This document shows, piece after piece, positions 1,087-8,231 of a DNA stretch of 64,000 nt (its first letter is position 1; each line of letters opens with the position of its first letter). The notes under the pieces are model-generated. The model had not been told where the DNA came from, searched no databases, and saw only the letters and a program-made list of their open reading frames with translations. Source of the DNA: Nocardioides scoriae (lineage in GTDB: Bacteria; Actinomycetota; Actinomycetes; Propionibacteriales; Nocardioidaceae). The stretch spans positions 310,001 through 374,000 of the forward strand of contig NZ_LT629757.1 of assembly GCF_900104965.1 (NCBI RefSeq), read 5' to 3'. The translations under genes were made by a program, and so were the position numbers.

Positions 1087-1131
1087 ACGCGCCCCCGGCA
1101 GGAATCGAACCTGCGACCAAGAGATTAGAAG
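1087..1131. repeat. left attachment repeat (tRNA-Arg 3' remnant)
   Basis: This 45-bp sequence is identical to 6516-6560. On the minus strand it contains the discriminator base, 3' acceptor strand, T arm, variable loop, 3' anticodon strand and anticodon loop of tRNA-Arg(UCU) down to position 32, after which the sequences diverge. No 5' half follows, so it is a non-functional tRNA remnant marking the left island boundary. Confidence 0.92.
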
Positions 1132-1166
1132 TCGGTCCCGCGTCATCCTGGCTTGTCCGACCCTGC

Positions 1167-1176
1167 CCTGATCAGG
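1167..1176. promoter_or_regulatory. palindrome CCTGATCAGG, possible operator
   Basis: A perfect 10-bp palindrome lies between the left attachment repeat and the first island gene. It could be an operator or an Xis site. A 10-bp palindrome alone is weak evidence. Confidence 0.2.
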
Positions 1177-1250
1177 CGGGGGAGCGGCGTTGCAGCCGAC
1201 TCTTCCTCCTGACCAGTCGGGCCCGATCCTAGGTCGTCGAGTAGCACGCC

Positions 1251-1258
1251 GTTAGCAA
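1251..1258 (+). repeat. GTTAGCAA motif near left island end
   Basis: The octamer GTTAGCAA occurs here, 120 bp inside the left attachment repeat, and again in the same orientation at 6451-6458, 58 bp inside the right one. Paired short repeats inside both attachment sites are what integrase arm-type sites look like, but the assignment is speculative. Confidence 0.3.
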
Positions 1259-1295
1259 CCGGCGCCGCTCGAGGCGCCAGGAGGAGGACCCGTAC

Positions 1296-1580
1296 ATGAC
1301 CGACGACGAGCTCGAGCCCACCCGGCGTCGAGAGACCGAGGCCGAGCGCCGGCAGATCGCCGCCAACGCCAGATGGGCCAGAGAGCCCGACCGCTCGGCG
1401 GCAACGCAGCCTGCCCGGGACGGCATGCTCCGTCGCTTCGAGGACGAGGTCGACCCCGACCGGACCCTCCCGGCTGAGGAGCGCGCAATGCGGGCCGAGA
1501 ACGCGCGCAGGGCGTTCTACCAGCGCATCGCGCTCAAGTCCGCTCAGTCGCGCCGCCGTAAGGCTGGTGGGGAGTCTTGA
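1296..1580 (+). CDS. island gene 1, small charged protein
   Basis: A 94-residue, highly charged Arg/Glu-rich protein, probably helical, with no cysteines and no recognisable catalytic motif. The start is well supported: AGGAGGAGG at 1279-1287 lies 8 bases before ATG, and a short GGCGCC inverted repeat (1261-1266, 1273-1278) precedes it. The stop overlaps the TTG start of the next gene, so the two are probably co-translated. Short basic/acidic proteins of this style are common beside Xis-like genes in actinobacterial integrative elements. No function is assigned. Confidence 0.7.
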   Translation: MTDDELEPTRRRETEAERRQIAANARWAREPDRSAATQPARDGMLRRFEDEVDPDRTLPAEERAMRAENARRAFYQRIALKSAQSRRRKAGGES

Positions 1581-2062
1581 GCGCCCCCAGGACCGGGACC
1601 CGGTTGCTGTCGGTCACGCACGCGGCCGAGCAGCTCGACTGCAGCCGCGGCCACATCTACGGGCTCATCGCCGCCGGCCGGCTGCCTGTCGTCGAGATCG
1701 CGGCGACCGGCACCCGCACCAAGACCCGCATCCGCGCCGAGGACCTCGAGGCGCTGATCGAGGGCAACACCCGCCGGGCGGGAGCACCTGTGCTCGCGTG
1801 GCCCGACGTGTTGCCGCCGCGGCCCGACCTCTACCCCCACGCCGCACTCGGCGCCACGGAGAGAGCGACCTATGGCACCACCGAGGCCGCTGAGCGGCTG
1901 CAGGTGCGCGCCAGGGACGTCACGGATGGCATCGCCGACGGCGATCTCCACGCCCACCGCGACGGCGACCGCGGCCGCTGGCGCATCGACCACGCCTGCC
2001 TGATGGCCTGGCAGCGCGGCGACCTCTGCGAGCACAGGAAGGACGGTGACGCCGCTAGGTAG
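1577..2062 (+). CDS. Xis-like protein with two helix-turn-helix domains
   Basis: A 161-residue protein with two excisionase-type (MerR/HTH_17-like) DNA-binding units. The first, at about residues 11-60, reads LLSVTHAAEQLDCSRGHIYG and is followed by a basic wing; the second, at about 98-150, has YGTTEAAERLQVRARDV. Such units usually bind att or promoter DNA and steer excision. The TTG start overlaps the previous stop (TTGA) with GGTGGGGAG just upstream. The same two-unit layout recurs in the broken gene at 3563-4053. Role in excision is inferred; a transcriptional regulator is equally possible. Confidence 0.7.
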   Translation: MSAPRTGTRLLSVTHAAEQLDCSRGHIYGLIAAGRLPVVEIAATGTRTKTRIRAEDLEALIEGNTRRAGAPVLAWPDVLPPRPDLYPHAALGATERATYGTTEAAERLQVRARDVTDGIADGDLHAHRDGDRGRWRIDHACLMAWQRGDLCEHRKDGDAAR

Positions 2063-2366
2063 CCAGGCGTGCGCGGCGGGACGCGTCCCGCGACATCACC
2101 AGGTCCCGGGGTGGGCTGCAACCCACGAGCACGTCGGGGAGGACGCCACCCACACCAGCGACAACGTCCAGCTCGCCATCACTGGCTGGCACTGTTACCT
2201 CACCCAGCACAGCCCGCGGAGCCGCCCCCAGGTCGTCCTGCTGGACGACCACGGCCCGCTCGAGGTCGTCCTGGGCGCCGGGCTGGTGGCCGCGATCCTC
2301 GCTGCCACTGAGACCCGGGAGACCCGGGAGGCCATGTGGGCTCTGGTGAACGAGGTCGAGTCGTGA
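2046..2366 (+). CDS. island hypothetical protein
   Basis: An open frame of 106 residues from a GTG at 2046 that overlaps the end of the preceding gene by 17 bases; an AGGAAGGA lies immediately upstream, closer than usual, so the start may be further in. The C-terminal two thirds (ITGWHCYLTQHSP, QVVLLDDHGPLEVVLGAGLV, a closing helix) look like a genuine small folded protein. The first 30 residues are low quality. The stop overlaps the next gene's GTG. Function unknown. Confidence 0.5.
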   Translation: MTPLGSQACAAGRVPRHHQVPGWAATHEHVGEDATHTSDNVQLAITGWHCYLTQHSPRSRPQVVLLDDHGPLEVVLGAGLVAAILAATETRETREAMWALVNEVES

Positions 2367-2755
2367 GCGCCGGCGTCGACGAGCCGGTGCCGTACGTCCT
2401 GACCTCGCGTGGGGAGGCGGCGACGCCGGCGATGGTGTGCCGAGACTGCGGGCGGACGTACAGCTCGTGGGGTTGGTTGATGGCTCACCGCTACAGCGCG
2501 GAACCGGCGAAGCAGGAGTCCGGTCGGCTGTTGGACGGTTCAACGCGGCGCCCCGCCAAGTTGTCGGCGGCGCCGCTTCTCAAGCGCGTCGAGGCGCGGG
2601 GTGGCTTCGCCGCCCGTGGTGGCCGACAGCACTCGGCAGAGGAGCGTGCCTACTACCGTGCACGCCGGGACGGGTGTCTTACTGGACGAGCAGCGGACCA
2701 GCTCGCAGTGCGGCTACTCGGGCTGACACTCATCGAGGTCTGGCGGCCGGACTGA
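2363..2755 (+). CDS. island hypothetical protein with zinc-finger-like N-terminus
   Basis: A 130-residue protein starting at a GTG that overlaps the previous stop (GTGA). Near residue 25 it has MVCRDCGRTYSSWGWLMAHR, a CxxC followed 12 residues later by His, resembling half of a C2H2 zinc finger. The rest is Arg-rich with a short hydrophobic C-terminus. A nucleic-acid-binding role is plausible from composition but not shown. Confidence 0.5.
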   Translation: MSAGVDEPVPYVLTSRGEAATPAMVCRDCGRTYSSWGWLMAHRYSAEPAKQESGRLLDGSTRRPAKLSAAPLLKRVEARGGFAARGGRQHSAEERAYYRARRDGCLTGRAADQLAVRLLGLTLIEVWRPD

Positions 2756-2898
2756 GGCGGATCTAGGCGGCGCCGAAATCAGGAGCGCCGCCAGATGGGC
2801 GACCGAGGTGGGTTTGCGCAGGCTTCTTGTTGCAGCAGCAGGGAAATCCATGCTGGCGAATTCCCGCCACACCTAGGTCGACCCCGTCCCGGGGCGCC

Positions 2899-2904
2899 TA
2901 CTGT
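2899..2904 (+). promoter_or_regulatory. -10 box TACTGT of a leaderless promoter
   Basis: TACTGT ends 6 bases before the ATG at 2911, with no Shine-Dalgarno sequence between them. It matches the TAnnnT-N6-8-start pattern seen throughout this window and supports the 2911 start. Confidence 0.55.
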
Positions 2905-2910
2905 CCGCGG

Positions 2911-3543
2911 ATGACGCAGAGTGAGACGGACAGCGGCAACTCGATCGAGTCGGAGACCGAGGACGAGGTTGTTGAGGCGATCAAGTACATGATCGCGGAG
3001 TCGTTGGCGGTCTCCGTCTTTGCGAGTTCGGGCATGTTCTACCTCAGTCGTCACATGCATCAGGTTCACCCCGATGTGTCTCTCGACAACTTCGTCCTCA
3101 TCGGTGACGGGGAAGGATCCGACGCTGACACCCGACCGCTTGGAATGATGCAGTGGGGCGATCTCCTCCGCGAGTTCGACCGAGGCGGCTCCGGTCACAC
3201 TGTCCTGTTCAAGCAGTGGGCAGTGACGCTCATGGCGGACTGGGAACCGCTGCGCGAGCGCCTTGCGGCGGCCCGTGGTGTCCCTGTCGAAGAGGTGATG
3301 GTCGACGCCCTTGGAGATCTGCGCCTGTATCGCAACGACATCGTTCACAACAAGGGACGGGCATCGAAGGACTGGAGTGGACGCGCGAAGGTGCTCAAGT
3401 GGTTCAAGCCCGGGGAGGTCATCGACATCGACACGCACCACCTTGTGCAGTTCCTCGACGCACTGCCCTGGGAGGCCGTTCCTCGGGCTCTGCCCACGGG
3501 GGTGCGCTGGGAGAACTCGCAGGGTCAGATCGAGGTCACCTAG
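2911..3543 (+). CDS. HEPN-like protein, possible RNase toxin or defence gene
   Basis: A 210-residue protein. Residues 133-149 form an amphipathic helix containing RNDIVH (R141, N142, H146), the RX4H arrangement that forms the active site of HEPN-superfamily RNases found in toxin-antitoxin and abortive-infection systems. The preceding part is helical and acidic (20 residues rich in Glu/Asp/Ser, then a long helix), and the C-terminus predicts two further short helices. It stands alone with its own leaderless promoter, and codon use is visibly less GC-biased than in chromosomal neighbours. The HEPN assignment rests on the motif and helical context only. An upstream ATG at 2827 is less likely. 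Confidence 0.6.
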   Translation: MTQSETDSGNSIESETEDEVVEAIKYMIAESLAVSVFASSGMFYLSRHMHQVHPDVSLDNFVLIGDGEGSDADTRPLGMMQWGDLLREFDRGGSGHTVLFKQWAVTLMADWEPLRERLAAARGVPVEEVMVDALGDLRLYRNDIVHNKGRASKDWSGRAKVLKWFKPGEVIDIDTHHLVQFLDALPWEAVPRALPTGVRWENSQGQIEVT

Positions 3544-3550
3544 TTCGTTC

Positions 3551-3556
3551 TACCCT
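3551..3556 (+). promoter_or_regulatory. -10 box TACCCT of a leaderless promoter
   Basis: TACCCT ends 6 bases before the GTG at 3563 and begins 8 bases after the stop of the HEPN-like gene. It indicates separate transcription of the following frameshifted gene. Confidence 0.5.
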
Positions 3557-3562
3557 GCCCAG

Positions 3563-4053
3563 GTGCCGCACAACGTAGACGCCGGCCGCAACCACGGCGA
3601 CTACGCCTACGCCCAGGCCGCGCAGATCCTCGGCGTCCACGTCTCCAACGTCCCCAAGCTCGTGACCCGCGGCGAGATCCGGTCCCGCGGCACGCGCGGC
3701 CCGCACGCGTCACTGCTGCGCGCCGACGTCGAGGCCGTACTCGAGCGCCGTCTGGAACGCCGCCGGGCCAAGGCTGAGCAGGAGTCGGCCACACCTCCGC
3801 GGCCAGCGTCCGCCCCACCCGACGACGACCACGAGAGTGGTTCAACCTCGAGCAGGCCGCCGACATCATCGGAATCAGCGGCCAGGCCGTCGGTAAGCGC
3901 GCCAGGAAGGGCACGATCCCCCACGTCCGCGCCGGGGTGCGCGTGTGGATCCGCTCCGACCACGCCCAGATCGTCGCCAACGCACACGCCGCACGAGAGG
4001 TCCTTGATGATCGGCGGGTCAGACCGTCCGGCGATTGGGGGCCTGCATCGTGA
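3563..4053 (+). pseudogene. double-HTH Xis-like gene with a frameshift
   Basis: The frame from GTG 3563 encodes a first HTH unit (YAYAQAAQILGVHVSNVPKL, then LLRADVEAVLERR) and stays open, but downstream of about 3780 its composition turns to nonsense. A second HTH unit (WFNLEQAADIIGISGQAVGK, then VRVWIRSDH) continues in another frame from about 3835 to TGA 4051-4053. That second frame has an upstream stop at 3775-3777 and no ATG, GTG or TTG before the domain, so it cannot be a separate gene. One missing base between about 3780 and 3834 joins both parts into a protein laid out like the 1577-2062 product. Causes could be a real mutation, a sequencing error or, less likely, recoding. Confidence 0.7.
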
Positions 4054-4127
4054 CATCCAGGACCCATCGGGTTTGCCCATTGCAGAGGTGATCTGAGCGG
4101 AACCGACGTTCCGGAACAGGTGCGCAC

Positions 4128-4133
4128 TAGGGT
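4128..4133 (+). promoter_or_regulatory. -10 box TAGGGT of a leaderless promoter
   Basis: TAGGGT ends 7 bases before ATG 4141. It selects 4141 over the in-frame GTG at 4120 as the start and is the likely promoter of the three-gene module 4141-5485. Confidence 0.55.
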
Positions 4134-4140
4134 TGCGGCC

Positions 4141-4557
4141 ATGCCGGAGGTGGTGGATCTTGCTGCGGATGCGGTCGTCATCCGCTTCGCACCCACCAGC
4201 ACTGAGGCAGTCCTCAAGCGTGCGCGAATGGAGTTCCGCCGCGCCCAGCACTACGGGTTGTCTGTCTTCGCTGACTCAGCGCGTCCGGGCGAGAGTCGTG
4301 ACCAGCTCATTGCGCGGCTGCTTGACGACTCGCAGCTGGCGGGGATTGATCCCCTGAACAACAAGAAGTACTACGTCTGCGCCAAGGCGGGGAATCTTGT
4401 CGACTCCGGCTTCGTTTTGGTCAAGGACGGCAGTGAGGAGGGGGAGGCCGAGCTACCGACCCACTACTGTGTCAACCTCGGCGAAGAGGACCCCAGTGTG
4501 GCGATTGCCGCTACATTTCTGGCACAGTTCGACGGACCGGAGAAGAGGGAGCCATGA
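4141..4557 (+). CDS. island module protein A, unknown
   Basis: A 138-residue protein, first of three genes whose stops and starts overlap. It contains VVIRFAP, a long helix (STEAVLKRARMEFRRAQHYG), then NNKKYYVCAKAGNLVDSGF, HYCVNLG and a closing helix. I see no signal peptide or membrane segment and no catalytic motif that I recognise. The Tyr- and Cys-containing strands suggest a compact alpha/beta fold. It ends with an ATGA overlap into the next gene. Function unknown; the setting within a mobile island makes defence or anti-defence one possibility, without direct evidence. Confidence 0.65.
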   Translation: MPEVVDLAADAVVIRFAPTSTEAVLKRARMEFRRAQHYGLSVFADSARPGESRDQLIARLLDDSQLAGIDPLNNKKYYVCAKAGNLVDSGFVLVKDGSEEGEAELPTHYCVNLGEEDPSVAIAATFLAQFDGPEKREP

Positions 4558-5072
4558 CTGCGAACGTCACGATTGACCTCAACGTCCGAGTCAGGGGCAA
4601 CCAGACATTCACCGGTCTCGAGGACGTGCAGGGGCCGATCTACGTTGGCGGGACCGTCCGGGTCATCGAACCGGAGTCGGGCGTAGCAGGCTATGCGGTC
4701 GTCACTGAGATCGACACCGACAGTGAACTGGTCTACCTAGCTGTGGAGTGGGCAACTCTTGCTGCAGAGAGTGACGACAGCGAAACCCTGTCGTTCATAA
4801 CAGACATGTCGCCTCACGTCCTCCATGCCCCCGCGCAGGAAGGGTGGCTGTATGTGTGGCCAGCCCAACTGAGGTCTGCACCCTTAGAGAATTTGACTGT
4901 CGCCTGCACCTTCGTCGACCGCTTCCGAGGCGATCTCGGCGGGAGTGTGCGTATCGCGGATGGCGCCCAGTGGTTAGAACCTGACAGTTGGCACCTGTCC
5001 ACGGAACCTGACAGCTGGCGCACGTCTACGTGTAGGTCGGTCGGTATCGACACGGTGGTAGGTATGGCGTGA
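4554..5072 (+). CDS. island module protein B, unknown, with C-terminal 9-residue repeat
   Basis: A 172-residue protein starting in an ATGA overlap with protein A. Residues 1-140 look all-beta (VTIDLNVRVRGNQTF, PIYVGGTVRVIEP, YAVVTEID, VYLAVEWATL, VACTFVDRFRGDLGG). The C-terminus carries an imperfect tandem repeat, EPDSWHLST followed by EPDSWRTST, encoded by a 27-bp direct repeat at 4977-5030. The frame then ends in a GTGA overlap with the next start. Function unknown; the beta-rich core and coupling suggest it forms a complex with its neighbours. Confidence 0.65.
   Translation: MTANVTIDLNVRVRGNQTFTGLEDVQGPIYVGGTVRVIEPESGVAGYAVVTEIDTDSELVYLAVEWATLAAESDDSETLSFITDMSPHVLHAPAQEGWLYVWPAQLRSAPLENLTVACTFVDRFRGDLGGSVRIADGAQWLEPDSWHLSTEPDSWRTSTCRSVGIDTVVGMA
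4977..5030 (+). repeat. 27-bp imperfect tandem repeat
   Basis: GAACCTGACAG recurs at 4977 and 5004, and the flanking bases remain similar across the 27-bp period. The copies lie in frame at the end of module gene B. The period of nine codons is consistent with coding-level duplication. A DNA-binding or terminal repeat cannot be excluded. Confidence 0.5.
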
Positions 5073-5485
5073 AGTTGCGAACAGTGATGTCCGTGGTCAG
5101 TGAGGGTGCTGCGACCGACGCACGAGGCCACATCACAGCGGTGGCGGTCGAACCTCAAACGTGGGTCGTTCCTGAGGTCCCTACCAACCTTGTGCCAGTC
5201 ATGTGCGTGATTGCCGAGGACGAGCACGACAGCGTTCTTGAGCCCGGCATTCAGGTCACATTGTCGTTCGGTGCAACATCGCCTTCGGGTGAGACACTCT
5301 TCTACAACCAGTCCACCAATACCTTGCCAGCCAAGAAGGATCCCTCGCTGCCGCATCGCCTGCAGGCGGTTGCACAGATTCCCTTGCCGGTGAACGCGAC
5401 AGGCATCTACACGCTGACGATCGAGCTGTCGGCGGGTGACCTGCGGCAGCGATGGTCCCGCCCGTTGAACGTCCGGGTGGGCTGA
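5069..5485 (+). CDS. island module protein C, beta-sandwich-like
   Basis: A 138-residue protein starting at GTG 5069 overlapping the previous stop. It begins LRTVMSVVSEGAATDARGHI and continues with alternating strands (VQ-type IQVTLSFGATSPSG, RLQAVAQIPLPVNATGIYTL, TIELSAGDLRQRW), an immunoglobulin-like beta-sandwich layout. It resembles small families such as DUF6941 in opening and strand pattern, but I cannot confirm membership. It is the third partner of the coupled module. Function unknown. Confidence 0.65.
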   Translation: MKLRTVMSVVSEGAATDARGHITAVAVEPQTWVVPEVPTNLVPVMCVIAEDEHDSVLEPGIQVTLSFGATSPSGETLFYNQSTNTLPAKKDPSLPHRLQAVAQIPLPVNATGIYTLTIELSAGDLRQRWSRPLNVRVG

Positions 5486-5529
5486 CACCCATCCGCGCCA
5501 GTAACGAGCGGCGCGTTCCGACTCAGCCC

Positions 5530-5793
5530 GTGAACCGCGTCTACGACCCCGCCGACCGTTCGGAGATCCAGGTCCTCATCGAGGGCACCTGGTACGAGGG
5601 CGACCTCCACGCCTGGCAGGCCCGCGGCGACGAGCAGTGGGCCTCGGTGTCCTACAGCCGCGACCACCAGAACTACGTCGACACCGTCCCCGCCGACCCA
5701 GGTAGCGTCACCCTGAACGTCTACGCCGACGTCATCCCCGAAGACGACACCTCAGCCGTCGACAGTTTCGCAAGGGCGGTGTGGGGGGCATGA
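5530..5793 (+). CDS. small island protein of integrative-element type
   Basis: An 87-residue protein; the GTG at 5530 is chosen because the real similarity-like content begins there (VYDPADRSEIQVLIEGTWYE). The pattern of a WYEG strand, a tryptophan-containing turn (LHAWQARGDEQWASVSY) and a C-terminal acidic tail ending in SFARAVWGA is typical of small beta-barrel-like proteins of unknown role in actinobacterial integrative elements. It is followed by an ATGA overlap with the next gene. An upstream in-frame start at 5452 would overlap module gene C. Confidence 0.5.
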   Translation: MNRVYDPADRSEIQVLIEGTWYEGDLHAWQARGDEQWASVSYSRDHQNYVDTVPADPGSVTLNVYADVIPEDDTSAVDSFARAVWGA

Positions 5794-6428
5794 GTTCGAT
5801 GCGCCGCGGCGCGGACATTTTTGAAGACATCGCTGGCGACATCGCCGGCTCCCTGGTGCCGGGGGTGGGACCCGTCGTCAAGCGGTTGGGGGCGAGGATG
5901 AGGGAGGAAAACGCCCGAAACCGGTCGCTTGCGCTTCGTGCAGCGTGCGACGCAGCCCAGTTGACCCGCGAGGACCTAGCCGAACGCGTCGTTGAGAATC
6001 CGCAACTGATTCCGCTGGTAACACGCCTGCTCTGGGAGGCCGCCATGACGGGTCAGCACCAGAAGCTCGAGGCGATGGGGCGCGCGTTCGGTCAAGCTGC
6101 CGCCCAGCAGACCGATGTCGAAAGTTGCGAGTTGATACTGACCGGTCTCCAAAACCTGGTGAGCGTCGATATCGTTGTACTTCGTTATCTCGGAGAGGTG
6201 CACGAGGTGTTCCGCCCCCACGCCAACGAACGTGAGACGGGGAACCGATCGACCCGCGAGGTCGCACCGAGAATGGGCATGACAGAGGAGCGCCTCTCCT
6301 ACTCGTTGGTGAGGTTGGCTGGCCAGGGAATGGCGAGCCAGTCGTCCGTAATCGGGGGCGAGGTCTACACGATCACCGGCTCCGGTCTCGCGCTTTACGG
6401 GGCCCTTCAAAAGGTGGGGGAGCAGTGA
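5790..6428 (+). CDS. island protein, helical with putative C-terminal winged helix
   Basis: A 212-residue protein starting in an ATGA overlap. Residues 8-30 contain a hydrophobic, glycine-rich amphipathic stretch (IAGDIAGSLVPGVGPVVKRL). A helical middle follows (LAERVVENPQLIPLVTRLLW, then LEAMGRAFGQAA), then LVSVDIVVLRYLGEVHEVF, and the last 60 residues (MGMTEERLSYSLVRLAGQGM, then GGEVYTITGSGLALYGAL) read as a winged helix. The layout is reminiscent of abortive-infection Abi-alpha/DUF4393 proteins, but that is a weak, unverified likeness. It is the last island gene before the right attachment site. Confidence 0.6.
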   Translation: MSSMRRGADIFEDIAGDIAGSLVPGVGPVVKRLGARMREENARNRSLALRAACDAAQLTREDLAERVVENPQLIPLVTRLLWEAAMTGQHQKLEAMGRAFGQAAAQQTDVESCELILTGLQNLVSVDIVVLRYLGEVHEVFRPHANERETGNRSTREVAPRMGMTEERLSYSLVRLAGQGMASQSSVIGGEVYTITGSGLALYGALQKVGEQ

Positions 6429-6450
6429 TCGAACGTAGCGATAGCAGAGA

Positions 6451-6458
6451 GTTAGCAA
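6451..6458 (+). repeat. GTTAGCAA motif near right island end
   Basis: Second copy of the octamer found at 1251-1258, in the same orientation, 58 bp left of the right attachment repeat. See that entry for the tentative arm-site reading. Confidence 0.3.
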
Positions 6459-6515
6459 TCCCGCCTCCCGTGCTGTGTGGGATGACCGTTGGCACCGCTC
6501 CGACCTGCACCTTCA

Positions 6516-6560
6516 ACGCGCCCCCGGCAGGAATCGAACCTGCGACCAAGAGATTAGAAG
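6516..6560. repeat. right attachment repeat (inside intact tRNA-Arg)
   Basis: A 45-bp copy identical to 1087-1131. It runs from just beyond the tRNA 3' end into the anticodon loop, so this copy supplies the 3' half of the functional tRNA. This is the usual way integrative elements preserve their target tRNA. Confidence 0.92.
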
Positions 6561-6591
6561 GCTCTCGCTCTATCCGCTGAGCTACAGGGGC
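6519..6591 (-). tRNA. tRNA-Arg (anticodon UCU)
   Basis: A 73-nt cloverleaf reads on the minus strand: acceptor GCCCCTG pairs with CGGGGGC, D arm GCTC/GAGC, anticodon loop CTTCTAA giving UCU (decodes AGA/AGG), and T arm GCAGG-TTCGATT-CCTGC. The discriminator is G and CCA is not encoded. The innermost anticodon-stem pair (C31-U39) is mismatched. Its 3' half was delivered by the island. Confidence 0.95.
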
Positions 6592-6689
6592 CTGAGACCA
6601 GCATGCCAGAGGTCGGGCGCGTGCCCGACGCACGCCTGGGTACGCCGGGACGAGGCGTCCCACGGCGCCCGACCCCGCGAGAGGACACG

Positions 6690-8231
6690 ATGCAGCCAAA
6701 GGTGATCGGCGGTCGCTACCGCGTCGAGTCCGAGGTCGGACGCGGCGGCATGGGCACGGTCTGGGCCTGCCGCGACGAGGTGCTGCAGCGCGTGGTCGCC
6801 GTCAAGCAGGTCGGTCGGATGCCCGGCGAGTCGCTCACCGACACCGCGCGGGCGCTGCGCGAGGCCCGGTCGTCCGCCGGGCTGAGCCACCCCCACGTCG
6901 TCACCGTCTACGACGTCGTCGAGGAGGCGGGGGAGGTCTGGCTGGTCATGGAGCTGGTCCGAGGCCGCTCGCTCTCGGAGATCATCAAGCAGGACGGCCC
7001 GCTCGACCCGGCCGTCGCCGCCGAGATCGGCGCCCAGGTCGCCGACGGGCTCGTGGCCCTGCACCGCGCCGGCACAGTGCACCGCGACGTGAAGCCGGGC
7101 AACGTGCTGGTCCGCGAGGACGGCGTGGCCAAGATCAGCGACTTCGGGATCGCCCGCACCGAGGGCGAGCACACCCTCACCCTCGCCGGCAGCCTCACGG
7201 GCACGCCGAGCTACTTCTCGCCCGAGCTGGCCCGCGGCGCGACGCCCACGCCGGGCGACGACGTCTGGGCGCTCGGCGCGACGCTGTACGCCGCCGTCGA
7301 GGGCGCCCCGCCGTACGCCACGCAGAGCAACCCGGTCGCGGTGCTGCACGAGATCGTCACCCGGCCGCCCGAGCCGCCCCTCCGGGCGGGCGTGCTCGCC
7401 CCGGCCCTGGACCGGATGCTCGACCGCGACCCGGCGTCGCGGTGGTCGATGGCCGACGCCGCCCACGTGCTCCGGCGGGTGGCCGACGGGGGTCGCCCCG
7501 AGGCCACGCTGGCCCGCACGGTGACCGGACCGGCCGCGGTGGCCCCGGCGCCCGACCCCACGACCGCGTCCACCCCGGACCCGACCCCGGACCCGACCCC
7601 GGACCCGACCCCGGACCCTGCCCCCGACCCGACCCCGGGGCGGACCCGGCCGCGAGAGCGCCGGCGCCGGTGGCCGGCCGCCCTCGTGCTCCTGCTCGTG
7701 GTCGCCGTCCTGGGCGGGGCCTGGGCGCTGGGCCGGGTGACGGGGGACGACGGCGCCGCGAGCGGTGCGGACGCGTCGGCCACCCCGTCCGCCACGCCGT
7801 CCAGGACCCCGTCGGCGACCCCGTCCGACAGCCCCTCGGAGTCGCCGTCCGCGTCGGCCTCCGCCTCGCCCACGGAGACGCCGTCGGAGTCGCCCTCGGC
7901 GTCCGCCTCCGGCTCGGCCACGGGGGCCGCGGCCCGGGAGCAGCTGGTCCGGGACTACTTCGCCGCCGCCCCCGGCGGCACCGACGAGGCCTGGGCGATG
8001 CTCGGTCCCAGCCTCAAGGCGCAGGGGCGGGCGTCGTACGACCGGTTCTGGAGCGGCATCGAGTCCGTCGACGTGCTCGCGGCCAGGGCGCGTCCGGGCA
8101 GCGACCTGGTGGACGTGACGCTGCGCTACCGCACCACCGGGGGCGCCACCAGCACCGAGCGCAAGATCGAGGGCCTCGTCGAGGCACCGGGAGGCGGCTA
8201 CCTGCTCGACACCGACACCTCGGCCGGCTGA
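6690..8231 (+). CDS. membrane-anchored Ser/Thr protein kinase (PknB-like)
   Basis: A 513-residue Hanks-type kinase. The kinase domain (about 7-270) has the glycine loop GRGGMG (17-22), Lys39, HRDVKPGN (131-138), DFG (151-153) and TPSYFSPE in the activation segment. A proline-rich linker follows with a DPTP repeat, then one membrane helix near 330-350, a Ser/Thr/Pro-rich external stalk and an external domain of about 100 residues with an NTF2-like flavour (REQLVRDYFAA). ATG 6690 has GAGAGG 9 bases upstream; a longer in-frame start at 6603 would only add residues ahead of the kinase fold. It probably senses an external signal and phosphorylates cytoplasmic targets. Confidence 0.88.
   Translation: MQPKVIGGRYRVESEVGRGGMGTVWACRDEVLQRVVAVKQVGRMPGESLTDTARALREARSSAGLSHPHVVTVYDVVEEAGEVWLVMELVRGRSLSEIIKQDGPLDPAVAAEIGAQVADGLVALHRAGTVHRDVKPGNVLVREDGVAKISDFGIARTEGEHTLTLAGSLTGTPSYFSPELARGATPTPGDDVWALGATLYAAVEGAPPYATQSNPVAVLHEIVTRPPEPPLRAGVLAPALDRMLDRDPASRWSMADAAHVLRRVADGGRPEATLARTVTGPAAVAPAPDPTTASTPDPTPDPTPDPTPDPAPDPTPGRTRPRERRRRWPAALVLLLVVAVLGGAWALGRVTGDDGAASGADASATPSATPSRTPSATPSDSPSESPSASASASPTETPSESPSASASGSATGAAAREQLVRDYFAAAPGGTDEAWAMLGPSLKAQGRASYDRFWSGIESVDVLAARARPGSDLVDVTLRYRTTGGATSTERKIEGLVEAPGGGYLLDTDTSAG
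7573..7618 (+). repeat. 12-bp tandem repeat encoding (DPTP)n
   Basis: The unit CCCCGGACCCGA occurs three full times plus a 10-base partial copy, encoding Asp-Pro-Thr-Pro steps in the juxtamembrane linker of the kinase. In-frame, so copy number changes would alter linker length without breaking the gene. Confidence 0.85.

Follow-up and report, generated by a model that had tools for sequence, protein, structure and literature searches.

A 5.4-kb island in the tRNA-Arg(UCU) gene of Nocardioides scoriae is probably a decayed mini-element stripped of its integrase

How does an island come to sit between intact attachment repeats in a tRNA gene while encoding no recombinase of its own? This question is raised by a 5.4-kb segment of the actinobacterium Nocardioides scoriae (NCBI RefSeq assembly GCF_900104965.1, contig NZ_LT629757.1), located in the 64,000-nucleotide stretch from positions 310,001 to 374,000 that was analyzed as a whole and is called the window here; plain coordinates refer to the window. 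The island, a 5,429-bp insertion bracketed by two copies of the 3' half of tRNA-Arg(UCU), is probably a decayed, integrase-gutted member of a family of very small (4 to 7 kb) site-specific integrative elements. Its boundaries are defined by the following features.

1087..1131, no strand: displaced 3' half of tRNA-Arg(UCU), the far-end copy of the attachment (att) core, identical to 6516..6560 and not found at the syntenic place in the relatives G002 and G009
6516..6560, no strand: att core copy within the intact tRNA gene, with 45-bp identity to 1087..1131
6518..6591, minus strand: tRNA-Arg(UCU), the target gene, presumably restored by the island (Rfam tRNA match)

The 45-bp direct repeat of the tRNA 3' half is exact, its spacing is 5,429 bp, and its boundary is the first base of the anticodon loop, in agreement with a first-pass annotation of this DNA. 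The tRNA gene (65 bits against the Rfam tRNA model) is the sole tRNA-Arg(UCU) gene found. When a 77-base query was compared with the 4.06-Mb single-contig genome, four matches appeared at an E value of ≤0.001, only two of which contained the 45-bp core (100%); the others were a 75% match at tRNA-Arg (CCG) and 26 bases outside the core, and a third core copy was not found. The locus thus has the anatomy of a tDNA island, i.e., a tRNA gene and a displaced fragment in the same orientation around foreign DNA.

Flanking gene order is kept in 2 of the 24 same-genus genomes searched, G002 and G009, which share the left flank of the window and were compared at the tRNA-Arg(UCU) site. Both have this flank (83 to 86% DNA identity), about 0.3 kb of intergenic DNA and then tRNA-Arg(UCU) without the island, an empty site of the kind that the first-pass annotation had proposed to look for in strains. 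Rather than being common to all relatives, the gene content is also rare: relatives of the first island gene, P1, occur in 13 of 197 family genomes, with the own genome as the only one of its genus, and relatives of the last, P10, in 10 of 197 including the own genome, with one further same-genus genome at 37% identity. Because the sites in G002 and G009 are empty and the island genes are rare, the island is an insertion and not an old chromosomal region. Three details do not fit a simple insertion picture: the tRNA gene is only 91% identical to the copies in G002 and G009, its differences in the 3' half are present in both repeat copies, and on the far side of the tRNA gene these two genomes have 2.2 kb that are missing from the window. 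The 5' half of the tRNA gene, outside the repeat, also differs from close relatives, being one base shorter in the D-loop region. In the relatives (L042 and L043) the roughly 2.2 kb lie between the tRNA gene and a kinase gene and are absent at 6592-6690 of the window; from the sequence of L042 we take them to encode a MerR-type regulator and a SulP-type transporter, and the kinase label is likewise our assumption.

The origin of the island is indicated by a short remnant close to its tRNA end.

5704..5793, plus strand: integrase stump, the last 29 residues and the stop codon (30 codons) of a tyrosine integrase, with the catalytic-tyrosine motif TLNVYADV
5530..5793, plus strand: P9b, a chimeric open reading frame (ORF) in which about 55 residues of an unrelated small-protein family are joined in frame to the integrase tail

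The last 32 residues of P9b have matches of 77 to 87% identity in 3 other genomes of 183 in the family, all of them at the C terminus of a PF00589 tyrosine integrase. At the DNA level, 5704-5793 is 82.2% identical over 90 bp to the integrase gene of locus L290 (E value of 2e-19), 79.5% over 88 bp to that of L292, and 74.4% over 86 bp to that of L291; the similarity stops at the stop codon, and there is none upstream of 5704. A phmmer search with the L291 integrase independently recovered the stump. Pfam gave no match to P9b, as expected because the stump has only 29 residues. The first-pass annotation had found no recombinase, which stands for a full integrase but not for this remnant: PF00589 had no match in the island even at an E value of ≤10 (six places elsewhere in the genome), and a custom integrase profile run in six frames found nothing significant (best E value of 0.68 among the matches listed); the latter missed the stump as well, so that it could have overlooked other short pieces too. 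Over nine tenths of the integrase gene has disappeared, and other DNA, including orphan cargo, occupies its place. As to function, the absence of a recombinase is therefore a correct statement, although the island once carried the gene. Because the 3' stump remains, it points to a secondary loss of the integrase rather than to an element built without one.

The three loci that match the stump outline the family to which the island would belong. L290 (genome G034) is inserted in tRNA-Met, with a repeat of 43 bp and a length of 4,194 bp; its integrase frame of 208 residues matches only residues 191-421 of the L291 enzyme, the integrase stop is overlapped by an ATGA from which, as with P10 in the window, a further frame can begin, and the C-terminal parts of the island proteins P2 (residues 80-153, 31% identity) and P4 (residues 53-127, 49%) have relatives in it. 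L291 (G128) also resides in tRNA-Met, has a repeat of 46 bp and a length of 6,564 bp, and contains a Mutator-type transposase. Its integrase is open, comprises 430 residues with Arm-DNA-bind_4, SAM_3, and Phage_integrase matches (the domain scan of the siblings covered three integrases and a transposase), and runs past the ATGA point. L292 (G123) has a frameshifted integrase adjoining tRNA-Met, with the ATGA present; it was dropped as a complete element, as no second end was found in 41.2 of the 42.7 kb of its contig. The stump would correspond to the 3' end of an L291-type integrase pointing towards the tRNA gene, this end being the only part available for comparison. Searches with the L291 integrase returned 9 IMG/VR loci at 20 to 30% identity together with 139 records from plasmids and 1,679 from phages; none reached 60% identity, and a near sibling was absent from these matches.

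A second line of evidence lies in the DNA next to the cores, where paired sites flank both island ends.

1241..1257, plus strand: P-arm pair GTAGCA-N5-TTAGCA, putative integrase-binding sites, in a 22-nt stretch with 20/22 identity to L290 and L291, where its offset is the same
6441..6457, plus strand: P'-arm pair ATAGCA-N5-TTAGCA, putative integrase-binding sites, with the 11-bp spacing seen in L290, L291, and L292

Inward of the core, the three complete elements (window island, L290, and L291) are 31 to 42% identical over 165 nt apart from this single stretch, whose 20/22 identity at the same starting offset holds for every pair of them and was matched in 0 of 2000 block-wise shuffles for each pair. 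GTAGCA-N5-TTAGCA begins 118 bp from the anticodon-loop GATTA in all three. On the tRNA side, all four loci have pairs with the same 11-bp spacing and a first site 76 to 82 bp from the tRNA gene. The pattern KTAGCA-N5-KTAGCA was found in 14 of 305 loci (window, 5 copies; G034, 3; G128, 2; G123, 2; others, 2). It is the pairing and placement of the TAGCA sites, not their abundance, that the elements have in common, and the pairs are probably binding sites of the integrase N-terminal domain. Two shorter similarities were given less weight: the 8-mer GTTAGCAA, shared near both cores, is by estimate at about chance level when taken alone and gained weight only together with L290 and L291, and TCATCCTGGC, located at the same offset near the core in L290 and the window (3 of 5000 shuffles), is absent in L291 and was not used. 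L305, the sole IMG/VR contig with the arm pattern, has 44% GC in the part examined, no tRNA, and no island or integrase match, and was taken as chance; an arm-like pair in G159 (L280 and L306) was dropped, its integrase-like matches being only 25% and 24% identical and several kilobases away. The repeats themselves are undamaged (45/45), as previously annotated, and with the likely arm sites retained as well the case for preserved attachment sites is stronger than it had appeared.

Taken together, these observations suggest a course of events for the probable decayed mini-element. Its ancestor would have inserted by tyrosine-integrase recombination in the anticodon loop of tRNA-Arg(UCU), a reaction that we infer from the observed anatomy and the empty relatives, and the 3' half that it brought along would have made the tRNA gene whole again, the original half being shifted to 1087-1131. 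The common layout of the family would read core, P-arm, helix-turn-helix (HTH)/excisionase (Xis)-like gene, P4-type gene, variable genes, integrase, cargo gene, P'-arm, and tRNA; this order is present in L290 and, minus the integrase, in the window. The integrase may have been lost when cargo DNA came in, and an overlap between its stop codon and the P10 start may explain why the stump has persisted. As to age, the undamaged displaced fragment weakly suggests a recent insertion, and the mosaic cargo hints, no more strongly, at elapsed time.

Several points weigh against this interpretation. The family is small, comprising two complete siblings and the one-ended remnant L292; the siblings reside in tRNA-Met and the window island in tRNA-Arg. 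Relatives of P1, P3, P5, P7 to P9, and P10 were not found in L290 to L292, and L291 has only the integrase and the arm sites in common with the window. The first P'-arm site of the window, ATAGCA, is one base off the sibling pattern, and the window has no excess of single KTAGCA sites (6 observed versus 9.7 expected; three of these lie at the att flanks). Finally, the closest relatives of P1 are prophages of about 50 kb in tRNA-Val, and part of the island content may thus come from phages.

These P1 relatives had first suggested that the island is the remnant of a large tRNA-specific prophage that kept some left-end genes, comparable to the prophages located in tRNA-Val in G100 (51.7 kb) and G182 (49.4 kb). 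P1 is 73 to 78% identical to their versions and, relative to the core, is on the same side; their repeats end at nearly the same place of the anticodon loop. The idea was overruled by the integrase stump and the arm sites, which match the mini-elements instead; moreover, the stump is directed towards the tRNA gene but the integrase gene of the prophages away from it, the prophage enzyme could not be aligned with the L291 type (E value of 0.79), and no structural gene was recognized in the island, so that a prophage origin is very improbable. More generally, a tyrosine integrase lies within ≤3 kb of P1 in 91 of 112 rows, a serine-recombinase candidate in 1, and neither in 20; these rows represent the best 80 of at least 99 confirmed genome-contig loci and 22 IMG/VR loci, and they include the window's own copy and places counted twice (e.g., L078/L158 and L080/L205). 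The serine-recombinase call was made by motif only, with what we take to be the motif of that family, and the labels adenosine deaminase and repressor/ImmA are likewise our assumptions from reading the sequences. In four loci (L158, L159, L205, and L164), elements of 6.6 to 9.4 kb, a satellite-like size, carry an integrase and P1 between repeats derived from tRNA-Met or tRNA-Pro. The own genome has a prophage-like region (G000:C1, about 1412700-1429800; L124 and L046) with a Xer-like integrase, a P1 homologue, a one-frame P6 homologue, and an integrase C-terminal fragment at 1418504.

Could the island instead be a live non-autonomous element, which had already lost its integrase on arrival and was moved in trans by a co-resident L291-type integrase, in the manner of a cis-mobilizable element (CIME) or a miniature inverted-repeat transposable element (MITE) of a phage-type integrase? 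The retained core (45/45) and both arm pairs, the open excisionase-like gene P2, and the damage to the integrase genes of L290 and L292 as well would all be in line with such movement. Integrases of another subfamily, P1 associated and located at many tRNAs, also show the site to be in use within the phylum: in the P1-bearing loci L148, L154, and L155, the integrase lies directly downstream of tRNA-Arg(UCU), which is also the target of the window island (genes resembling those for RepA and a prohead protease are presumably present in L155 too), and in L228, where the arrangement differs, two integrases are located 100 and 578 bp away from such a tRNA. However, relatives of the L154 enzyme (42 matches at an E value of ≤1e-40 in 39 of 324 family genomes) yielded, among the loci of 30 of these matches, 11 with a tRNA, namely, 6 Met and 5 Val and no Arg, and exact strings from the two island ends had 0 matches each in IMG/VR. 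Elsewhere in public genomes tRNA-Arg(UCU) thus appears to be used by tyrosine integrases, and the matching arm type was not seen there.

The host itself likewise argues against movement in trans. Recombinases from the own genome, compared as five proteins of the six PF00589 places (the sixth is a fragment), show identities to the L291 integrase of 24% (307 residues aligned), 28% (341), 27% (190), and 47% (32), with no hit for the fifth; the host thus seems to be without a close relative of this enzyme among the five. Specifically, the tyrosine integrase at tRNA-Lys, 13 kb to the left, was rejected as a helper, since its tRNA core differs and it is the one with 24% identity. This lone open gene for 409 residues (G000:C1:297003-298232; L041:3004-4233) ends 12 bp from tRNA-Lys, of whose half no second exact stretch (≥14 bases) was found in 274500-312000. 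All in all, an element moved in trans is unlikely. Because its own integrase is gutted and no close relative of the cognate enzyme was found in the host, the probable decayed mini-element would be expected to be immobile, not excising alone and now locked in place. Its core and arms survive, so the island DNA may still be a recombination substrate, and dependence on a helper integrase or movement in trans is possible.

Between the attachment sites lie about 11 ORFs, P9b included; the other ten are as follows.

1296..1580, plus strand: P1, 94 residues, small phage/satellite protein (phrog_2842, unknown function; E value of 4e-4)
1577..2062, plus strand: P2, 161 residues, excisionase-like regulator with two HTH_17-type domains (PF12728, 2e-19; TIGR01764, 2.9e-16; phrog_66, 2e-9)
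2046..2366, plus strand: P3, 106 residues, ORF overlapping the ends of P2 and P4 (third-position GC of 0.89)
2363..2755, plus strand: P4, 130 residues, with a zinc-finger-like N-terminal part (zf-C2H2, under the Pfam cut-off)
2911..3543, plus strand: P5, 210 residues, orphan cargo, confined to its own genome among 293 order genomes
3563..4053, plus strand: P6, second double-HTH excisionase-like gene, with a frame change near 3832-3838
4141..4557, plus strand: P7, 138 residues, orphan cargo, overlapping the start of P8 (GC of 0.62)
4554..5072, plus strand: P8, 172 residues, orphan cargo, with no relative confirmed among 47 pattern matches in genome contigs
5069..5485, plus strand: P9, 138 residues, orphan cargo, in 2 of 293 order genomes including its own
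5790..6428, plus strand: P10, 212 residues, cargo, with a start codon overlapping the integrase stop (ATGA)

The first-pass annotation had counted about ten small genes of different base composition. The number is nearly right, but the composition is a mosaic in which P1 to P4 and P6 (GC of 0.71 to 0.74) are close to the host (0.735 for window positions 7000-64000), P9b has 0.68, and P5, P7 to P9, and P10 have 0.60 to 0.63. Two excisionase-like genes had also been reported as remaining, which applies to P2, whose reading frame is open, whereas the halves of P6 are in different frames: they are 91% and 68% identical at the amino acid level to a same-genome homologue near 1.415 Mb (G000:C1:1415283-1415678) that keeps one frame. 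Within the P3 ORF, a guanidine-II riboswitch-like match at 2228-2277 on the minus strand (26.2 of 32 bits, under the gathering score) is probably due to chance.

Since GC-poor orphan genes occupy the former place of the integrase, the island might alternatively be a domesticated cargo or defense island, retained for P5 and P7 to P10 and with mobility irrelevant. P5 contains a stretch, RNDIVH, that may resemble the HEPN RNase motif. The defense function proposed earlier found no backing in PADLOC, which detected no defense system in the ten ORFs listed above and matched only the mad1 HTH to P2 (2e-10) and, weakly, P6 (0.008). Single-sequence structure models of P5 and P10 (mean predicted local distance difference test scores of 42 and 45) are uninformative and too poor for a fold search; against PDB sequences, P5 had one match (E value of 0.24) and P10 none. 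Domestication for cargo is accordingly quite unlikely. Other searches gave little: the only relative of P9 outside the own genome is weak (E value of 7e-5 in the 293 order genomes), no integrase was found in the short loci of nine P10 relatives, no relatives of P2, P4, or P10 were confirmed in IMG/VR, a plasmid collection searched with the island DNA gave no match, and phage records searched with P2 gave one match covering 38% of that protein. No relaxase or transfer gene was recognized in the island ORFs scanned, nor was a capsid or replication gene in ten of them, and there was no convincing packaging gene, the packaging-type matches being weak (P6 to a terminase-small-subunit family with its HTH part, E value of 0.008; P8 to a baseplate family, 0.048).

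Decayed elements of this general kind are already known; the literature searched contained neither the mini-element family nor its arm sites. CIMEs are defined as decayed integrative and conjugative or integrative and mobilizable elements that lost their integration and transfer genes and kept attL and attR (PMC5704250). The island resembles them, as the first-pass annotation had considered, in its retained att sites and lost integration genes; the scanned ORFs contained no recognized transfer gene that would point to descent from a conjugative or mobilizable element, and no third core copy suggests a tandem. The 15 ssrA islands without an integration module in Dehalococcoides (PMC3146451) are similar, with a serine recombinase at ssrA there and a tyrosine integrase at a tRNA here. 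Phage-inducible chromosomal minimalist islands (PICMI) reportedly share the reduced gene content (PMC10803314); no evidence of phage induction or packaging was seen for the window island. Among phage satellites, a small share reportedly has no known integrase, and the chromosomal ones of these are probably inactivated (PMC10690885). The available portion of PMC11706625 describes no such elements. The tDNA islands of Islander have the same tDNA with a displaced 3' fragment and an anticodon-centered crossover, and that procedure rejects candidates without an integrase ORF (PMC4383910).

Because an integrase ORF is demanded, att-bracketed islands with a broken integrase, such as the present one with only a 30-codon stump, escape catalogues of the Islander type. 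It is a tentative thought, and rather a doubtful one, that actinobacterial mini-islands of 4 to 7 kb repeatedly shed their integrase and keep the core, the arms, and an Xis-like gene, and thus act as trans-mobilized cargo carriers, a phage-integrase analogue of MITEs. The identification of a lost enzyme from a 90-bp stump and probable arm sites means that orphan islands may be matched to their helper integrases, which makes trans-mobilization directly testable.

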